Positions 32,884 through 42,915 of a stretch of DNA of 64,000 nt are shown piece by piece; position 1 is the stretch's first letter, and every line of letters starts with the position of its first letter. The stretch covers positions 209,094-273,093 of the forward strand of contig NZ_JAPDDS010000008.1 of the NCBI RefSeq assembly GCF_025950085.1, read 5' to 3'. Source of the stretch: Luteolibacter flavescens (GTDB lineage Bacteria; Verrucomicrobiota; Verrucomicrobiia; Verrucomicrobiales; Akkermansiaceae). Position numbers and translations under genes: made by a program. Under the pieces are notes generated by a model. The model was not told the DNA's origin and made no database searches. It saw only the letters and a program-made list of their open reading frames with translations.

Positions 32884-33524
32884 GGGAAATCCGCGCCTTC
32901 GCCTGCGAAGGGGTAAGTGGAATGCTGGCCCGGATCCAGATCGATCATACGTGGCCCAATGACGCTAGCCGTTCACAATGAACGGCTGGCAAACTTCTCA
33001 TACCTTGGCATTCCAATAAAATCATCAGGTGGCGCTGAGGCCCGAAATCATCGCATAAAGCGCGGCGGCGGGGCACATGACCCTGCTTCGCGAGCGACTG
33101 AAGCAAGTGTATAAGTCGGAACGGGTGAGCGGGCAAGCGGGATTTTTTCCGGGGAGTCGGCATCCCAATTAGATGGCAGTCGACTTGAACTGCCGCCAAG
33201 GCTGGCGGAACGGCTCCCTGCAAACCATCGTGGCCGAGGCCCAGCTGCAAGGTGGACCGCATCGTTCCCGTGGGAGCGCCAGCCCTGGGAGCGCCGGTCA
33301 CCAGACCGGCCCGAAGTGGTGCCTCGCTGACCACCTCACCAAAACCGTCCGCATGGCCCTCACGGGGAACGCGAAATTCATTCCGCCCGAGTTCACATCA
33401 CTGCCGACGGAAGCCCTGTGCCATCGTGGTCCGCACAGGGCGATGTGGGCCGGCAGATTGCTTCGGGCCGGTCTGATGACCGGCGCTCCCAGGTTCCCGC
33501 TCCCAGGTCTCTGCTGCCGTCCGT
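32884..33524. other. gene-free region with two R1 repeats
   Basis: 640 bases without a supported gene. It contains R1 at 33287-33316 (preceded by a partial duplicate GTGGGAGCGCC) and 33461-33490, plus GGAACGCGAAATTCATTCCG (33366-33385), a relative of the block that follows the R4 elements. The first 150 bases should hold the infC promoter; none was clear to me. Confidence 0.55.
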
Positions 33525-36500
33525 TCAATCCGAGGCGACGGAGAGGCGGAGGAAGAGCCTTTCCACGGGCGTGCTCGGGATGGCGAGGACGTTGGCGGTG
33601 GTGGCTGTTCCGGTGATGCTGGCGGTGACGGTGGGGCCGCCTGCGGGGCCGTCGGTGCCATCGGCATCATGCCACTGGAGCAGGTCGGTGGACCATTGGT
33701 AGCTGGCGCCGAGACCGGCGGGTGGCGTGGCATTCAGCGAGTGGCTGAAGCTGAATCCCGTGCCGGAGCCCGCGCCCGCGGCGGGGACCGCGACGAGCGC
33801 TCCCAGTCCCGCATTCGCCTCGCCGGGATGCGTGCCGAGCCAGGCTTCCACGCCATTCGGGATGCCATCGCCATCCGGGTCGCTCGCAAAGCCACGATCC
33901 CCCACGGCAATGCCGTAGGCAGGGTTCGCGATCCACTCGCTGTAGCTGACCTGGTTCAGGCCAAGCGCCTCGATGCCGCTGAACCACACCGCAGCCATCT
34001 TGTCGTAGCCGTCGTTGTCGGGATGGTTGATGCCATTCGAAAAGAGCGACCGGTCGATCGACTCGAGGTCCGCGGGGTTCGTCAGGAAGGGCGCATACTG
34101 GTCCACGCGGGAGACGCGCTTGCCGAGGTTCTGGTACTTCGGCACGAGCGTCTGGCGGATCCACGAGTTGTAGTTCACCACGCCCTGCTCGTAGTTGTAC
34201 TTCGGCATGATCTCGGCGACGATGACGTAGGTGTCCGGGCTCGTCGTGGTGATGGTCTGGATCAGCGTGTCGAGGCCGTTCTGGTCGGCGGAGTTCGTGC
34301 CGATCTTCAGGAGAATGACGTCCGGGTCGTCGTTCGCCAGCCAGCCTTGGATGTTCGCATTCAGGTAGCCCGCGGCCTGTCCGCCGTAGCCGTTGTGCTT
34401 GTTCTGGTCGAGCGCGGCGAGGTCCGCTGGAGGCGTGGTGCCCGCCACGTGCGAGGGCAGCTCGGTGGACTGGCCCACGAAGGTGAAGTCGTAGCCCGCC
34501 GCGTGCAGTCGATTGTAGAGACCGCTGCGGTAGCCGTACCAGAAGGGCTCGTTCCACACCGGATTGTCCGTGTAGCCCGCGGTGATCGAGTCGCCCATCG
34601 GCATGATGCGCAGCGGCGTGCGGCCCGTGGTGAAGCTCCACGTGACATCGTCCGCGATGCCCGCGAAGGCATCGTCATGGAAATCCTCCACCGCACCGGC
34701 ATCGATGAGCACGGCGTAGCGCGTCAGCGGCGCGAGGCGCGGCGACGGCGTGATGGTCAGCGTGGTGCCCGCGAGCGAGATGCGCGGGTCGGTCACGGGG
34801 ATCACTGTCTCCGCCGCGGTGTCCAGATTCCGGATGCGGATTGAGCCGCTGCCCGCGGTGATCGCTTCGTCAAAGGTGGCGACCAGGGCGGCGGACGGCG
34901 AGACGTCCGTGGCATCGTCCGCAGGGACGAGCGACACCAGCGTCGGCGGCGTGCCATCGTCCACCAGCGGTGCGGCGGCGTGACCGAAGACATCCAGCTC
35001 TCTCCACACGAAGGCACCCGCATTCGCGCCGCCATTCACCTGGTTCGCGGTGAAGCGGATCGCCTCGATGCCCCCGGCGAGCAGCGGGCCGGTGCCGCCG
35101 AGCACCACCTTCGTCGCGCCCTTTCCATTGAGCGGCTGGTAATTCACCGTGGCCAGCGTGGTGTAGCTCCCGCCCAGCGGCTTCACGTCCACGGTCCATG
35201 CCTGGTTGCCGAAGGAGACATCCACCCAGCTCGCGATGGAGTGGATGGAGGTGAGATCATAGCCCGTGCCATTCGGACCCGCGCCGAGCTGATACACGGC
35301 GGTCGCGCCCACGGTGGTCCATGCGCCTTCCACGCTGTTGCCGATCGAGGCGAAGTTCCGCCCGTGGATGCCGTCGGTCAGCTCCGTGGGATGCGCGCCA
35401 TTGCCCGTATTCCAGCCGGTGGTCACGGGCGTGATGCCGTGCAGGAGGTCGTGCGCGCTCGCGTCTCCGGTGTAGGCCAGCTCGTCGAGCGTGAAGGTCC
35501 GCGTGTCCGGTGCCGCCGTGGTGAAGCTCCACGTGGTGTCATCGGCGATGCCCGCGAAGGAATTCCCCGCGGCATCCGCGACCACGCCCGCGGAGAGGCG
35601 CACGGCATACGGCGAGGAGCCCGCCACCAGCAGGCCGGGGCGAATGGCCAGCGTGCGTCCGCTGACGGTGACGCGCGGGTCCGGCAGGGTGATGACGGTC
35701 TCCGCCTGCGTGGTCGTGTTCTTCAGCGTCACGGTCCCGGTGCCGAGCGTGATCGGCTCGTGGAAGTCCGCCGTGAGCGTCGCTCCCGCACCCACCGAGA
35801 CGGCGCGGTTTTCCGGGAAGAGCGACACCACCACCGGTGCTACGGTATCCGTAGTAGATGCGGTCGGTGCGCCGTGGACGTCGATCTCGCGGAAGACGGT
35901 GCCGCCCGCGGCATTCCCCACGGTATCCAGCACGTCGAAGCGGATGGCCTCCACGCCGCTGGCCAGTTTGCCGGTGCTGTCCGTGATGCGCACGCGGGTC
36001 GCGCCGCCTTCATTCAGCGTGGCGCTGTACGGCTGGTAGTTCACCGTCGCCACGGGCGAGGTCTGGAAAGCGGACTCGCCCACCAGACGCACGCGCACCT
36101 CGTAACGCTGGTTCGCGAAGCCCGCCCCCTGCCACGCGGCGATGGACTGGATATTCGTGATGTCGTAGCCGAGCCCGCCGGGGCCCGCGCCGAGGACGAA
36201 TTCCCGGAAGGAAACATTGCTGCCGTCCCGCGACCATGCCGTGCCCGCAAGCGCCGAGATGCCCGCGGCATCCGAGTCCGCGCCGTGCACGCCGTCATTC
36301 AGCCCGGCCGGGCTGGAGCCGTTCGCATTCCACGTGCCGCCCGTGCCGGTGAGGCCGTGCAGCAGGTCCGTGGTACTCACGTCCTCGGCGTAGGCCAGCT
36401 CGTCCGTGGCGGTGGACGGGGTATTCGGCCCGCTGTTCCGCGGCGTGATGATCGGCGCGGCGGCCACGCTGGCGATGCCGGTGAGCCATGCGGCGGCCAG

Positions 36501-36545
36501 CGGCGCGGCGAGCCGAGGCGAGGAGGAGGCGACGGGTTTTCTCAT
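33525..36545 (-). CDS. large secreted SGNH-hydrolase-like protein with two copies of the shared discoidin-like domain
   Basis: 1006 aa. Signal peptide 1-29; shared domain copy 1 at about 48-226 (DELAYAEDVSTTDLLHG ... FREIDVHG); Big_5-type Ig-like domain 233-345; shared domain copy 2 at 353-522 (DELAYTGDASAHDLLHG ... WRELDVFG); second Ig-like domain 532-642; SGNH domain about 645-865 with MPMGDSITAG (Ser654), KIGTNSADQ and NGINHPDNDGYDKMA (His841); tail with DPDGDGIPNGVEAWLG. SGNH enzymes deacetylate or de-esterify polysaccharides; here the usual DxxH aspartate is not obvious. It is 51 bp downstream of the PEP-CTERM gene, same strand. Confidence 0.8.
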   Translation of the reverse strand: MRKPVASSSPRLAAPLAAAWLTGIASVAAAPIITPRNSGPNTPSTATDELAYAEDVSTTDLLHGLTGTGGTWNANGSSPAGLNDGVHGADSDAAGISALAGTAWSRDGSNVSFREFVLGAGPGGLGYDITNIQSIAAWQGAGFANQRYEVRVRLVGESAFQTSPVATVNYQPYSATLNEGGATRVRITDSTGKLASGVEAIRFDVLDTVGNAAGGTVFREIDVHGAPTASTTDTVAPVVVSLFPENRAVSVGAGATLTADFHEPITLGTGTVTLKNTTTQAETVITLPDPRVTVSGRTLAIRPGLLVAGSSPYAVRLSAGVVADAAGNSFAGIADDTTWSFTTAAPDTRTFTLDELAYTGDASAHDLLHGITPVTTGWNTGNGAHPTELTDGIHGRNFASIGNSVEGAWTTVGATAVYQLGAGPNGTGYDLTSIHSIASWVDVSFGNQAWTVDVKPLGGSYTTLATVNYQPLNGKGATKVVLGGTGPLLAGGIEAIRFTANQVNGGANAGAFVWRELDVFGHAAAPLVDDGTPPTLVSLVPADDATDVSPSAALVATFDEAITAGSGSIRIRNLDTAAETVIPVTDPRISLAGTTLTITPSPRLAPLTRYAVLIDAGAVEDFHDDAFAGIADDVTWSFTTGRTPLRIMPMGDSITAGYTDNPVWNEPFWYGYRSGLYNRLHAAGYDFTFVGQSTELPSHVAGTTPPADLAALDQNKHNGYGGQAAGYLNANIQGWLANDDPDVILLKIGTNSADQNGLDTLIQTITTTSPDTYVIVAEIMPKYNYEQGVVNYNSWIRQTLVPKYQNLGKRVSRVDQYAPFLTNPADLESIDRSLFSNGINHPDNDGYDKMAAVWFSGIEALGLNQVSYSEWIANPAYGIAVGDRGFASDPDGDGIPNGVEAWLGTHPGEANAGLGALVAVPAAGAGSGTGFSFSHSLNATPPAGLGASYQWSTDLLQWHDADGTDGPAGGPTVTASITGTATTANVLAIPSTPVERLFLRLSVASD

Positions 36546-36596
36546 GGAAGCGGGAGCGGGAGAGGAGACGGGAGCAATGCGGCGTGTAGGATCAGA

Positions 36597-37319
36597 TCAG
36601 CGCGCGTTGCTGACGCGGCGGCGCTTGACCAGCAGCAGCGTGCCGAGCGCACCGAGCAGCGCGGCACCGGGCTCTGGCACAGTGGACGCGCCGAAGACAT
36701 CGATCTCGCGCGGGACGAAGGCACCTGCATTCGTCCCGCCATTCACCTGCAGCGCGGTGAAGCGGATGGCATTCACACCCGTGACATTCAGGCCCGTGAG
36801 GGACACCTGCGTCGCCCCTCCGGCGGTGAGCGGCTGGTAATTGATGGTGGCCAGATCGGTGAAGCTGATGCTGCCGACCGGGCGCACCGCGACGGTCCAC
36901 GCCTGATTGCCAAAGCGGACATCTACCCACGCGGCGATGCTCTGGAGCGAGGTGATGTCGTAGCCCAGGCCATTCGCGCCGCCGCCGAGGTCGTAGGTGG
37001 CGGTCGCGCCGACCGTGGTCCAGCCGCCGTCCACGAGATTCCCCGCCGCGGCGAAGGTGGCACCGTGGACGCCATCGGTGAGTTCATTCGGATGGGCTCC
37101 ATTGGTGAGGTTCCAGCCGGTGATGGCAGGCACCTTGCCATTCAGCAGGTCGGTGCTGCTGACATTCGCGGCGTAGGCGAGCTCGCTGGTGCTATTCACC
37201 TCGGAGACGCTGCCGGTGAAGCCATTCAGAAAGGTGACCGCGGCACGGGCCGGTGCGGCGGCGAGGAAGAGCGAGGCGAGTGCGGAGAAAGCGATGCGCG
37301 GGGAGCTGTGGTTTTTCAT
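36597..37319 (-). CDS. PEP-CTERM exported protein made of the shared discoidin-like domain
   Basis: 240 aa: signal peptide 1-27; shared domain 45-211 (SELAYAANVSSTDLLNG ... ELTDGVHG ... GYDITSLQSIAAWVDV ... VPREIDVFG); and the C-terminal sorting signal TVPEPGAALLGALGTLLLVKRRR. PEP-CTERM proteins are processed by an exosortase and usually delivered to the cell surface or extracellular polysaccharide. Transcribed with the SGNH gene and divergent from the ECF sigma gene, 144 bp away. Confidence 0.87.
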   Translation of the reverse strand: MKNHSSPRIAFSALASLFLAAAPARAAVTFLNGFTGSVSEVNSTSELAYAANVSSTDLLNGKVPAITGWNLTNGAHPNELTDGVHGATFAAAGNLVDGGWTTVGATATYDLGGGANGLGYDITSLQSIAAWVDVRFGNQAWTVAVRPVGSISFTDLATINYQPLTAGGATQVSLTGLNVTGVNAIRFTALQVNGGTNAGAFVPREIDVFGASTVPEPGAALLGALGTLLLVKRRRVSNAR

Positions 37320-37336
37320 CGGTATCGGGGATTCCT

Positions 37337-37421
37337 GCGGAGATTCCCGACCTGCCTCCGGCGTTAACGGATTCCTGAGAAAATTTTCACCGCGGAGATT
37401 TCCCGGAAAAATCTGTTAACG
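37337..37421. promoter_or_regulatory. two direct repeats of a bipartite box in the divergent sigma/PEP-CTERM promoter region
   Basis: GCGGAGATTCCCG (37337-37349) then GTTAACG (37363-37369), and again GCGGAGATTTCCCG (37392-37405) then GTTAACG (37415-37421). The GTTAAC hexamers are 52 bp apart. Their placement between the divergent genes suggests promoters or operators of the sigma factor itself. Confidence 0.5.
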
Positions 37422-37463
37422 TCCCGCCTCCATCGGGAATCCTTGCAAAGAGCACAAGACCGC

Positions 37464-38000
37464 ATGGACCCCGAGGACGCCCTGCAAGCCGAGTTTGTCT
37501 GCCAGATCGCCCGTCACCAGGCGAGCCTTCACGCCTTCATCATCTCGCTGATGCCCGGCGTGGATGGCGTGGATGACGTGCTGCAGGAGACGAACATGGT
37601 GCTGTGGCAGAAGCGCGAGACCTACGAGCCCGGCACGGACTTCCGCGCATGGGCGTGCACCATCGCGCGCTTCAAGGCGATGGCGCACCGGCGGAGGGTG
37701 GCGAAGCTCGGCGTGCGCTCCTTCGAGGACGATCTGCTGGAGCTGCTGGCCACGGAGAGCGAGGCCGGGCCGGATGAGCTGGAGGAAAAGCTGCGCGCGC
37801 TGGAGAAGTGCCTGGGCCGGCTGGACGAGCCGGAGCGCGGGCTCATCGAGCACCGCTACTACACGGCCACCGGGCTGGAGGACTTCTCGGCGAAGTGCGG
37901 CCGCCCGGTGGAGTCGCTGCGCGTCAGCCTCTTCCGCATTCGCGCGGCACTGAGGAAGTGCATCTCCGGGGAAATCGCCATCGCCCACCTGCGCTCATGA
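37464..38000 (+). CDS. ECF-type RNA polymerase sigma factor
   Basis: 178 aa. Region 2: HAFIISLMPGVDGVDDVLQETNMVLWQKRETYEPGTDFRAWACTIARFKAMAHRR, with the DVLQETN helix that contacts core polymerase and the -10 element; region 4 follows around LDEPERGLIEHRYYTATGLEDFSAKCGRPVESLRVSLFRIRAALRKC. ATG 37464 is preferred over a TTG at 37443. The stop overlaps the start of the FecR-type gene (ATGA), the usual sigma/anti-sigma coupling. Such sigma factors are common in Verrucomicrobiota and Planctomycetota. Confidence 0.9.
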   Translation: MDPEDALQAEFVCQIARHQASLHAFIISLMPGVDGVDDVLQETNMVLWQKRETYEPGTDFRAWACTIARFKAMAHRRRVAKLGVRSFEDDLLELLATESEAGPDELEEKLRALEKCLGRLDEPERGLIEHRYYTATGLEDFSAKCGRPVESLRVSLFRIRAALRKCISGEIAIAHLRS

Positions 38001-39430
38001 TGAACCGCCGCGATCTGGAAAGACACCTGCAGGCTTTCTTCGACGGCACGCTGGAGGACGAGCACTTCGCCGCGCTGCAGGAGGTGCTGCGCCGGGACCC
38101 GGAGGCGCGCGCGTGCTACCGCGAGTACCTGCACCTGCATCACCTGCTCAGCTTTCGCGCGAAGGGACCGGACCGGCTGCCCGCGGATTTGTTAGAAGAG
38201 ATCATGCCGCCCGCCCCGCCGGTACGCTTCCCGCGGAGGGGGCGGTGGATGCTGGCCGCCGCCGCGGTGGTGGCACTGCTGGCGACGCTCGCGGGGAGCA
38301 TGATGGCGTGGCGCCAATCGCAGCGACCGCCGCTGCGCTACACGGCCAGCCCGGGCACGGACATCAGCGTGACCAGCGAACTGGCCCCGACGGGACAGAG
38401 GGCACAGGGGCCATTTCTGGAGCCGGGATCGCAGCTCGAGATCGGCGACGGCACCATGGAGCTGGAGTTTTCCTCCGGCGTCCGCGGCATCGTGCGCGGG
38501 CCCGCGAGCTTCCGGCTGTATCGGAAGGATCTGCTGGAGCTGGAGCGCGGCACCGCGTGGTTCCACGTGCCGGAAAAGGCGGCGGACTTCAAGGTGAGCA
38601 CGCCGGACCTGATCCTGAAGGAAACGGGCGCGGAATTCGGCGTGATCGCGGACCCGGCCTTCCTCTCCGAGGTGCATGTCTTCCACGGCAGCATCGAGGC
38701 GACGAGCCGCCATGGGCGCCGCACCAGCAAGCGCGTGGGCGCGGGCACGGCGCAGGCGGCGGAGGACACGGGCGAGTGGCAGGAGATCCCGGTGAGGCGC
38801 GGGCGCTTCCTGACCAGCCTGCCGGGCGTGGAGCCGGAGTCGAATGTGATCGTGAGCAAGGAATCCAGCCCCGTGGATCGCGCTTATGAGAATGAGGCGA
38901 GCGCGGACGACCTGCTCACGGGCATCGTCCCGCTGACCACCGGCTGGAAGCTGCAGAACAACGCGAGCCCGCTGGAGCTGACCGATGGCATCCACGGCGC
39001 GGGCTTTCAGAAAGTGCAGGGCGACATGGTGCAGGGCGCGTGGACCACGGTAGGTGCCACCGCCGAGTATCGGCTCGGCATCGGCCCGAACGGTGCCGGA
39101 TACAACATCACCATGATCCGCTCGCTGGCGGATTGGGAGAATGTCGGCTTTGGCAACCAGGCATGGACCATGGAGGTGAAGCCGGTGGGCCGCGACTGGA
39201 TGCCGCTGGCGTCCGTCGTTTACGATCCCTTGCCAGCGCAGCTCACCAGCGGCGGCTCGACGAAGGTCACGGTGACCGGCAAGGACGGTCGCCTCGCGCA
39301 GGGAATCGAGGCCATCAAGGTAACCGCCGGCCGCGTCCCCGGGTCCGTGCAGCACGGGTTCGTCTGGCGCGAGCTCGATGTCTTCGGCGCCCCCGCGGAC
39401 GTGCCGGTCACGGGCAGCGGGAGGGAGTAG
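37997..39430 (+). CDS. FecR-type transmembrane anti-sigma regulator with a discoidin-like sensor domain
   Basis: 477 aa. Cytoplasmic anti-sigma-like helical domain 1-70 (LERHLQAFFDGTLEDEHFAALQEVLRRDPEARACYREYLHLHHLL); one membrane helix about 83-107; FecR domain 120-285 (LEIGDGTMELEFSSGVRGIVRGPASFRL..KVSTPDLILKETGAEFGV); and residues 296-466 forming the same domain as in the exported proteins encoded divergently (DDLLTGIVPLTTGWK ... ELTDGIHGAG ... FVWRELDVFG). It probably holds the ECF sigma until the outer domain meets its ligand. Confidence 0.87.
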   Translation: MMNRRDLERHLQAFFDGTLEDEHFAALQEVLRRDPEARACYREYLHLHHLLSFRAKGPDRLPADLLEEIMPPAPPVRFPRRGRWMLAAAAVVALLATLAGSMMAWRQSQRPPLRYTASPGTDISVTSELAPTGQRAQGPFLEPGSQLEIGDGTMELEFSSGVRGIVRGPASFRLYRKDLLELERGTAWFHVPEKAADFKVSTPDLILKETGAEFGVIADPAFLSEVHVFHGSIEATSRHGRRTSKRVGAGTAQAAEDTGEWQEIPVRRGRFLTSLPGVEPESNVIVSKESSPVDRAYENEASADDLLTGIVPLTTGWKLQNNASPLELTDGIHGAGFQKVQGDMVQGAWTTVGATAEYRLGIGPNGAGYNITMIRSLADWENVGFGNQAWTMEVKPVGRDWMPLASVVYDPLPAQLTSGGSTKVTVTGKDGRLAQGIEAIKVTAGRVPGSVQHGFVWRELDVFGAPADVPVTGSGRE

Positions 39431-39435
39431 GGCGG

Positions 39436-39530
39436 AGATCGGAGGACGGAGATCAGATGTCGGATGTCGGAGATCAGAAATTTGAGATCTGAGATTTGAG
39501 ATTTGAGATTTAAGATTGTAGATCGCGGAT
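39436..39530. repeat. low-complexity tract
   Basis: Imperfect tandem runs of GGAGATCAGA- and GAGATTTGA-like heptamers directly after the FecR stop, then plain sequence. No coding or hairpin potential seen. Confidence 0.6.
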
Positions 39531-40083
39531 CTGCTGGAATCAGAGGCGCAGCCTCCCTGGGAGCGCCGCTCATCAGACCGGCCCGAAGCCATCTCGCCGC
39601 GGGCCACACCCCAAAGGCCGAAGCCGCCCTCCAAAGTGGTCCGCACCGCTCCGCGTACGGCGAAGCAGTTCTGGAGGCGCGCCTCGTATAGTGGCTTCGG
39701 AGCGGTCGGTTTTGCCAAGAAGCCTGCTTCAAGGAGCGGCGTGCTTTCATGCGAGTGACGATCGCGGATCTCTTCACCTACTTCCCTACCGATGCACCGC
39801 ACGCGGAGCGATGCGGACCACGATGGCACGGGGTGATGGCGGGCTGTTAGACGGTGCTCGGGCGGAATGAATTCCGCGTTCCCAGTGGGGGGCGATGCGG
39901 GCTTTTCACGGAGATGTTTTGGAGCAATTGGGGAGACGAGCGGGGCGCGGGGTGAGGCGGGCCGGTCTGATGACCGGCGCTCCCAGGGCTGGCGATCCCC
40001 CACCCCTCCCCTTCTCAAAGTCAGGGCCAAGTTTTCACCCGCGGTTCATTCCGCATTCACGGTGAGGGATTTCCCTCCGCATC
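39531..40083. other. gene-free region with R1 and R4 repeats
   Basis: About 550 bases: R1 at 39559-39588, R4 at 39636-39821, the R4-associated block CGGGCGGAATGAATTCCGCG near 39858-39877, and R1 at 39958-39985. No gene supported. Confidence 0.65.
39636..39821. repeat. R4 palindromic element, copy 1 (186 bp)
   Basis: Starts GTGGTCCGCACCGCTCCGCG and ends CGCGGAGCGATGCGGACCAC, i.e. near-perfect inverted ends. The second complete copy (42502-42687) is also exactly 186 bp. Both are followed, directly or after an inserted stretch, by GATGGCACGGGGTGATGGCG. Confidence 0.8.
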
Positions 40084-41854: not shown

Positions 41855-41911
41855 CAGCTCGTGGCGGGTGGTGAACGATGCGGACCTTTTCTCGGGGATC
41901 ATCGGTCCGGT

Positions 41912-41944
41912 ATCGTGGCCCGCATCGCTCCGCGTGCGGCGAAG
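41912..41944. repeat. R4 single arm
   Basis: GTGGCCCGCATCGCTCCGCG with the following TGCGGCGAAG matches the left arm of R4 (39636, 42502) without the opposite arm. Confidence 0.65.
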
Positions 41945-41999
41945 TGATATGGTGGCCCCCTCCTCCTTTGAAACCCGATCAAAGCCGAACAGAAGACCC

Positions 42000-42431
42000 A
42001 TGATGAAGACCTCCGAAATCCAGTGTTTCACGAAGGCGTGGCTGCGCTCCTTCCGGCCGACCATCGCAATGCTCGCTTGCCTGCTATCCAGCAGTTGCGA
42101 TCCGGGAAAGAAGTGGTCGAGCGGGGATTACGCCGTTTATTCGATTGGCTCCATCGAGGACCAACAGCTTGGCAGGGAGGTCGACAGTGGAAACTACATC
42201 GGGCGTGTCGAAGCAACGGTGATCGCCGCGGGTGCCGATGACACGTGGATCGTGGCAGCAAGGAAAGGACCCGATGGAAGCCGGTTGTTCTACTATTTCA
42301 TGAAGTCGCGGGACGACGGGTTCATGAATGGCGAGGATCTCGTGGAAGGCCCGTTTGACGAAGCGGAGTTTGCGAAAAGGAAGCGGGAATACGCTTTGCC
42401 TGAGCTGCAATATTTTTACGGTGGTTCTTAA
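42000..42431 (+). CDS. putative lipoprotein of unknown function
   Basis: 143 aa: MMKTSEIQCFTKAWLRSFRP, hydrophobic IAMLACLLSSSC with a lipobox (cysteine about residue 36), then a soluble domain (DYAVYSIGSIEDQQLGREVD ... YFMKSRDDGFMNGEDLVEGPFDEAEFAKRKREY). Codon use is less GC-biased than its neighbours and it sits between R4 repeats, so it may be recently acquired. No family recognised. Confidence 0.62.
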   Translation: MMKTSEIQCFTKAWLRSFRPTIAMLACLLSSSCDPGKKWSSGDYAVYSIGSIEDQQLGREVDSGNYIGRVEATVIAAGADDTWIVAARKGPDGSRLFYYFMKSRDDGFMNGEDLVEGPFDEAEFAKRKREYALPELQYFYGGS

Positions 42432-42915
42432 TGGCACCACCATCGAGGAGCCGGGCAGAGACTTGTGACTAGGCGAGGCTGAAGTGCGCCGGTCCGGCAA
42501 CGTGGTCCGCATCGCTCCGCGTGCGGCGAAGCAGTGATGACGGCGGGCTTTGTTATTGAGGCTTCGGGAAGCCGGTTTTTTCCGAGGGAGAGCTTTTGCC
42601 GGTGGCTTGCTTGCAGGCGGGTGATGGTGGCGGGCTTCATCGCTGGCTTCCCTACCGGTGCACCGCACGCGGAGCGATGCGGACCACGATGGCACCCGGT
42701 TTCCATCCGCAGTCGGAGACCACTCGGGCCGGTCTATTGACCGGCGCTCCTAGGGGCTGGCGCCCTGGCGGGCCACGATGGCACGGGGTGATGGCGGGCT
42801 GTTAGATGCTGATCGGGCGGAATGAATTCCGCGTTCCCAGTCGGGGCGATGCGGACATTCACCTTCATCTCCAGCTTGAAAACTCCCGCTCCCGGTCTAT
42901 CGCTCCGGGGCCGTG
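42432..42915. other. gene-free region with R4 and R1 repeats
   Basis: R4 copy 2 at 42502-42687, R1 at 42724-42751, and the R4-associated block GATGGCACGGGGTGATGGCG (42777-42796) with CGGGCGGAATGAATTCCGCG (42814-42833). Compared with the 39.6-39.9-kb copy, the R1 hairpin and flank look inserted between R4 and that block. Confidence 0.65.
42502..42687. repeat. R4 palindromic element, copy 2 (186 bp)
   Basis: GTGGTCCGCATCGCTCCGCG ... CGCGGAGCGATGCGGACCAC, with perfectly complementary outer 20 bases. Same length as copy 1; the inside is only partly alike. Confidence 0.8.

Follow-up and report, generated by a model that had tools for sequence, protein, structure and literature searches.

A predicted FecR-type sensor of Luteolibacter flavescens shares its tail module with neighbouring predicted exported proteins, and unrelated modules replace it on both sides in most testable related loci

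In Verrucomicrobiota and related phyla, most extracytoplasmic function (ECF) sigma factors have no known input. What such a factor may respond to is the question raised by a locus of Luteolibacter flavescens, found at positions 33525 to 39430 of a 64,000-nucleotide stretch of its genome (the window; contig NZ_JAPDDS010000008.1, positions 209,094 to 273,093). There, the gene of an ECF sigma factor (37464..38000, + strand, putative start codon ATG 37464) overlaps, by 4 nt at its stop, the gene of a FecR-type predicted anti-sigma factor of 477 amino acids (aa; 37997..39430, +), and two genes for predicted exported proteins lie on the other side of a divergent gap (37320-37463), which has the length of 144 bp given in a preliminary description of the sequence. 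That description had reported one domain occurring both in the FecR-type protein and, three times, in the exported proteins; it had proposed that sensor and surface proteins bind the same ligand, or each other, and that the arrangement fits a single regulon.

The shared module and its exchange in related loci

The four copies of the module are homologous, and their limits are close to those first proposed. One forms the tail of the FecR protein (aa 289-466; 38861..39394, +), one is contained in a small predicted exported protein of 240 aa (aa 39-211; 36687..37205, -; gene 36597..37319, -), and two in a predicted exported SGNH protein of 1006 aa (aa 43-226, 35868..36419, -; aa 347-522, 34980..35507, -; gene 33525..36545, -). 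They share 40-65% identity, with BLASTP E-values ranging from 9e-37 to 5e-74; the best E-value obtained by any query against 2000 shuffled copies was 0.004. Within the 5.9-Mb genome these four are the only strong copies (E <= 2e-81), three further matches being weak (3e-13, 1.5e-9 and 3e-6). In scans of the window proteins no Pfam or NCBIfam model matched the module, and PF00754 (F5/8 type C) gave no match at E<=1; the predicted fold is a jelly roll of the F5/8C/CBM32 kind. The module is present in 49 of 386 genomes of the order, and a protein search with the FecR tail retrieved 115 proteins, 71 with a FecR scaffold and the remainder mostly Big_5/SGNH proteins. When 20 FecR copies were compared with 49 exported copies, after removal of four gap columns, 50 conserved residues were common to both sets and no column was conserved differently.

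Related systems were searched by using the FecR scaffold alone, that is the cytoplasmic helices, the membrane helix and the periplasmic FecR fold (38000..38833, +), with 7 query sequences, in the 386 genomes of the order. Thirteen loci were found at 350-509 bits, the next locus being at 287 bits; two more came from beyond this search, L013 from the scan of a named genome and L197 from a family scan of 260 genomes, for a total of 15 clade loci in 11 genomes. Their FecR proteins carry five tail families, mutually unrelated by profile comparison. Tail A, the type of the window, is found at 6 loci; tail B, in L102, resembles F5/8C below the cut-off; tail C, in L156-L158, has a beta-sandwich model to which no relative could be assigned confidently; tail D is found in L160-L162, and tail E, which matches the Pfam HpiC1-like family at 69 bits, in L159 and L197. 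Four genomes contain two systems of different type (A and B in G235, C and D in G009, D and E in G330, A and E in G750). On the scaffold tree the tail label changes 6 times in the best tree, and at least 4 times. At one D locus, L162, the sigma gene reads in two overlapping frames (G328:C1, 8663-9210), owing either to a true lesion or to a fault of the assembly.

Each tail was then compared with every open reading frame (ORF) of at least 90 aa in the stretch around its locus, for the 14 testable clade loci, L159 being excluded since its contig starts just before the sigma gene. A predicted exported neighbour of the tail's own type was found at E<1e-3 in 11 of the 14 loci, compared with 3 (L163, L086 and L109) of the other 70 ECF/FecR pairs, corresponding to a Fisher p of 6e-9, uncorrected for kinship; at the stricter E<1e-10, the counts were 10 of 14 and 1 of 70. 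Divided by family, the matches at E<1e-3 were 5/6 for A, 1/1 for B, 3/3 for C, 1/3 for D and 1/1 for E. L162 is borderline: its E-value is 2.4e-3, and the D tail profile, to which its own tail contributes, gives 1e-4. By using profiles built from the FecR tails alone, an own-type neighbour was found in 12 of the 14 loci; cross-type matches were limited to L053 (B, 1e-6) and to a distant ORF in L162 (E, 8e-5), and in the 82 non-clade loci A matched in 3 and D in 1. The profile-profile probability between sensor and exported copies was 100% for A, B and C, 96% for D and 99.5% for E, with cross-type values not above 1.5% among A-E and of 3.6% for A against LamG; the exported sets of B-E having been chosen by tail match, only the cross-type zeros are independent for these families.

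All together, four tail families are matched strongly, and one weakly, by neighbouring exported proteins. The homology noticed in the window is borne out, and the match, taken at first as special to this pair, is the rule of a FecR clade. As far as can be judged from sequence comparison, unrelated domains replace the module on sensor and products together in most testable related loci.

Promoter elements and the sigma recognition helix

The divergent gap contains an identical bipartite element, GTTAACG-N11-TCGGGAATC, on both strands, one copy facing each gene. The exported-protein genes have their predicted sigma-dependent promoter at 37342..37368 (-), ending 22 nt before ATG 37319; the copy at 37415..37441 (+), predicted to serve the sigma/FecR genes, ends 22 nt before ATG 37464. 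The 5.9-Mb genome contains no other exact match, and no occurrence of the shorter GTTAACG-N11-TCGG outside the gap. Two near-matches with 2 mismatches were found; a reversed control pattern also yields 1.

GTTAAC is present within 142 nt upstream of the sigma gene in 12 of 15 clade loci, compared with 15 of 71 others, and two copies within 242 nt in 9/15 and 1/71, respectively. The D loci show GCTCAC together with its inverted copy GTGAGC (3/3, versus 1/71 others) in place of GTTAAC, a change seen on both sides of the gap. One residue of the region-4 helix of the sigma factor is V in all 12 loci of types A, B, C and E, and N in all 3 of type D. Over 85 sigma factors, GTTAAC was found upstream of 26 of the 45 with V and of only 1 of the 40 with other residues; removing the clade from the test leaves 14/33 versus 1/37 (p 6e-5). 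The identity of this helix residue predicts the upstream hexamer also outside the clade, and alanine goes with TAAACC (5/9, versus 1 elsewhere, among the same 85 factors).

This covariation supports GTTAAC as the putative -35 element of these sigma factors; it follows that the local factor probably acts on the divergent pair, co-regulating the exported-protein and the sigma/FecR genes. The single regulon, proposed at first from the arrangement, is thus supported by the helix covariation and by a promoter-like pair that is identical, outward-facing, conserved in the clade and unique in the genome, all of them properties of the sequence.

Exported partners, gene calls and surroundings

Along the SGNH protein of the window, the first module is followed by an Ig-like Big_5 domain, the second module, another Big_5 domain and a GDSL/SGNH hydrolase (Big_5, 115 bits; Lipase_GDSL_2, 34.9 bits, cut-off 32.9). 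The large partner of the A loci is a GDSL/SGNH protein, over the cut-off in the window, just below it on PF13472 in L013 and L059, and at the PF00657 cut-off in L052; in L058 the GDSL protein is a distinct PEP-CTERM one that lacks the module, and the exceptional L053 has a SASA esterase with a B-like domain, together with a LamG protein. At the C loci this role is taken by a SASA carbohydrate esterase, in L161 (D) by a metallophosphatase and in L102 (B) by a CotH/lamin-tail protein. Counting some GDSL proteins that score just under the cut-off, 9 of 14 testable loci hence have an esterase of the SGNH superfamily (GDSL or SASA) as partner, which favours an acylated polysaccharide as the probable target. 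An Asp is usual in the DxxH block of SGNH proteins; for the SGNH domain of the window protein (33525-36545) the family consensus has SNGINHPDN as its conserved block, in which the DxxH Asp is not obvious.

The small 240-aa protein consists of one module and a PEP-CTERM-like tail. It had been called a PEP-CTERM protein; the likeness of the tail holds, but its PF07589 score of 13.9 bits is under the Pfam cut-off of 20.7, and the genome's list of 26 PEP-CTERM matches does not include this protein. Of the small neighbours that carry the module at related loci, four were scanned: those of L102, L161 and L197 pass the PEP-CTERM cut-off, and that of L156 is below it (16.2 bits). Two exosortase matches (PF09721) over the cut-off are located elsewhere in the genome.

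The sigma factor belongs to the TIGR02989 (Rhodopirellula/Verrucomicrobium) family of NCBIfam (156.2 bits, cut-off 124.55), for which the genome (5.9 Mb) shows 42 matches at E<=1e-3, suggesting many parallel switches of this kind in one cell. The FecR protein reaches 22.4 bits against PF04773 (cut-off 24), a threshold passed by the clade members L159, L102 and L156 (L161 reaches 23.2), and its predicted structure shows a PupR-like periplasmic fold behind the membrane helix.

Directly 3' of the FecR stop codon, tandem repeats with periods of 7, 14 and 21 are found (39433-39523). Dispersed intergenic repeats, in pieces of 30-97 nt with up to 100% identity and partly inverted, flank the system on both sides (33272-33493, 39555-39999 and 41903-42856), returning near 42.5 kb.

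What the sensor may read

The favoured reading, to which we assign a probability of about 0.6, is that the FecR protein, as a predicted anti-sigma factor, binds by the module shared with its neighbours the same ligand as they do, and then releases the sigma factor onto both gene sets. A role as anti-sigma factor is suggested by its family and fold, and the module would face outward and bind the ligand of the exported modules, probably a glycan. Binding would free the sigma factor, probably by proteolysis, by analogy with FecR and RsgI systems, and the freed factor would transcribe, and thereby induce, the sigma/FecR genes and the exported-protein genes. The cell would thus likely sense what its own surface proteins bind, as judged from the sequences compared. 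An exchange of the sensor without exchange of the exported modules would uncouple the signal from the product, and this would account for the joint change of both sides. The shared ligand, already suggested in the preliminary description, gains indirect support from the four further unrelated sensor families matched by their neighbours, as well as from the 50 common conserved residues and the CBM32-like predicted fold. A more far-reaching possibility, for which we would put the odds at clearly less than even, is a plug-and-play, self-referential switch, in which the anti-sigma factor carries a tethered copy of the protein that it controls and the cell reads the state of its own coat; at least five unrelated modules would have been swapped into one ECF/FecR chassis, in every case on sensor and product jointly, with promoter and recognition helix changed together, keeping one paralogue apart.

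Several observations weigh against the shared-ligand reading. Because the clade loci are related, the evidence is weaker than the Fisher p suggests, and it is the five tail families that count as independent; for D, the single-sequence matches are weak (2.5e-5 and 2.4e-3). L160 (D tail) has no own-type neighbour, having a LamG neighbour instead, nor has L053 (A tail; G109:C22, 6631-9958), whose neighbours carry B-like and LamG domains and which is perhaps a half-completed swap. Both E loci have one GTTAAC only, on the exported-gene side, and L052 a single one, on the sigma side only. The wider family of LamG-tailed FecR proteins is not enriched, a LamG neighbour being found in 6/33 of its loci and in 9/64 others. 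No polysaccharide-degradation cluster was seen around the locus among the window ORFs read, and a predicted CBM32-like fold is no proof of glycan binding, since many F5/8C domains bind other things.

The main rival supposes that what the FecR module senses is the exported product, by homotypic contact or by competition for one partner such as a sorting or folding factor, so that the system would be a homeostat of the amount of surface protein and not a detector of an outside ligand. We regard this as rather unlikely, as the esterase partners of 9 of 14 testable loci fit an outside or extracellular polysaccharide, and the predicted fold of the A-type module is CBM32-like. It is less probable still that the match has no function and records only proximity, after local duplication between adjacent genes. 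Adjacent genes are a ready source of modules, and related loci may have the arrangement in common by descent, but other ECF/FecR pairs with exported neighbours show a match in 3/70 only, and the promoters are common to both sides as well. Furthermore, in a tree of the A-type module (87 rows, with every third FecR row of the protein search retained), all exported copies fall outside a single clade formed by the FecR copies (SH-like approximate likelihood ratio test, SH-aLRT, 99), which suggests a long linkage without recopying.

A classical FecIRA system, in which a TonB-dependent receptor with its gene at another site supplies the signal and the tail plays no part in it, would agree with the PupR-like fold of the scaffold and with the 16 TonB plug domains of the genome. 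None of the 16 is on the contig of the window, and a search for the STN signalling domain, which detects it in 4 of 14 controls, gave no match in this genome, so that the FecA-type input appears to be missing; we consider this explanation very improbable. According to PMC9249621, the second periplasmic subdomain of PupR is needed for receptor binding; unlike in FecI/FecR/FecA and PupI/PupR/PupB, the swappable module here occupies the place of that subdomain.

Returning to the shared ligand, the wiring is best read, by analogy, as similar to that of clostridial RsgI, built from other parts. As described in PMC12203970 and PMC4711584, RsgI proteins are membrane anti-sigma factors with exchangeable C-terminal polysaccharide sensors (CBM3, CBM42, PA14, GH10) and autoregulated sigma promoters, and the scaffoldin CipA of Clostridium thermocellum likewise has CBM3 as its binding module (PMC4711584). 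The likeness to SigI/RsgI, which regulates the cellulosome in that species, lies in the exchangeable C-terminal sensor, in the putatively autoregulated sigma promoter and in the presence of the sensor module on predicted target exported proteins (11/14 testable clade loci). The differences are that the sigma factor is an ECF one (TIGR02989) and not SigI, and the scaffold FecR, with no match to the RsgI family at E<=1 in the Pfam scan of the FecR protein, that a single divergent locus holds the targets together with a small display protein of PEP-CTERM-like type, and that sensor and target modules change family together in the loci compared. The PEP-CTERM-like tail and the exosortase genes recall PEP-CTERM/exosortase proteins; upstream of PEP-CTERM genes Haft et al. 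2006 (PMC1569441) describe sigma-54-type sites, whereas here an ECF sigma factor would be the controller.

LamG-tailed FecR proteins of the same order have the same sigma family, the FecR scaffold and a similar tail length. They were mentioned in the preliminary description, and PF13385 is at, over or just below the cut-off in 6 of 7 scanned non-clade FecR proteins (over it in L093, L166, L179, L106 and L109, below in L185 and L072), but neighbours do not match their tail family above the background level, and these proteins do not follow the rule of the clade. One of them, L109 (G235:C137, 8894-10381 and 14258-14935), matches a 225-aa neighbour at 5e-43 and is possibly an independent case of the same arrangement. 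In the literature searched no title pointed to a report of such a domain match between sensor and products, nor was there any paper combining FecR with PEP-CTERM, or three of Verrucomicrobia, ECF sigma factor, FecR and PEP-CTERM, subscription papers and preprints being outside the scope of the search.

If sensor and products do have their module in common, tests on the exported proteins could reveal what the sensor binds, and vice versa. The five tail families represent natural domain-swap experiments. The pairs found at these loci would be ready-made parts for biosensors, and the link between helix residue and hexamer provides a way to predict the targets of this sigma family.
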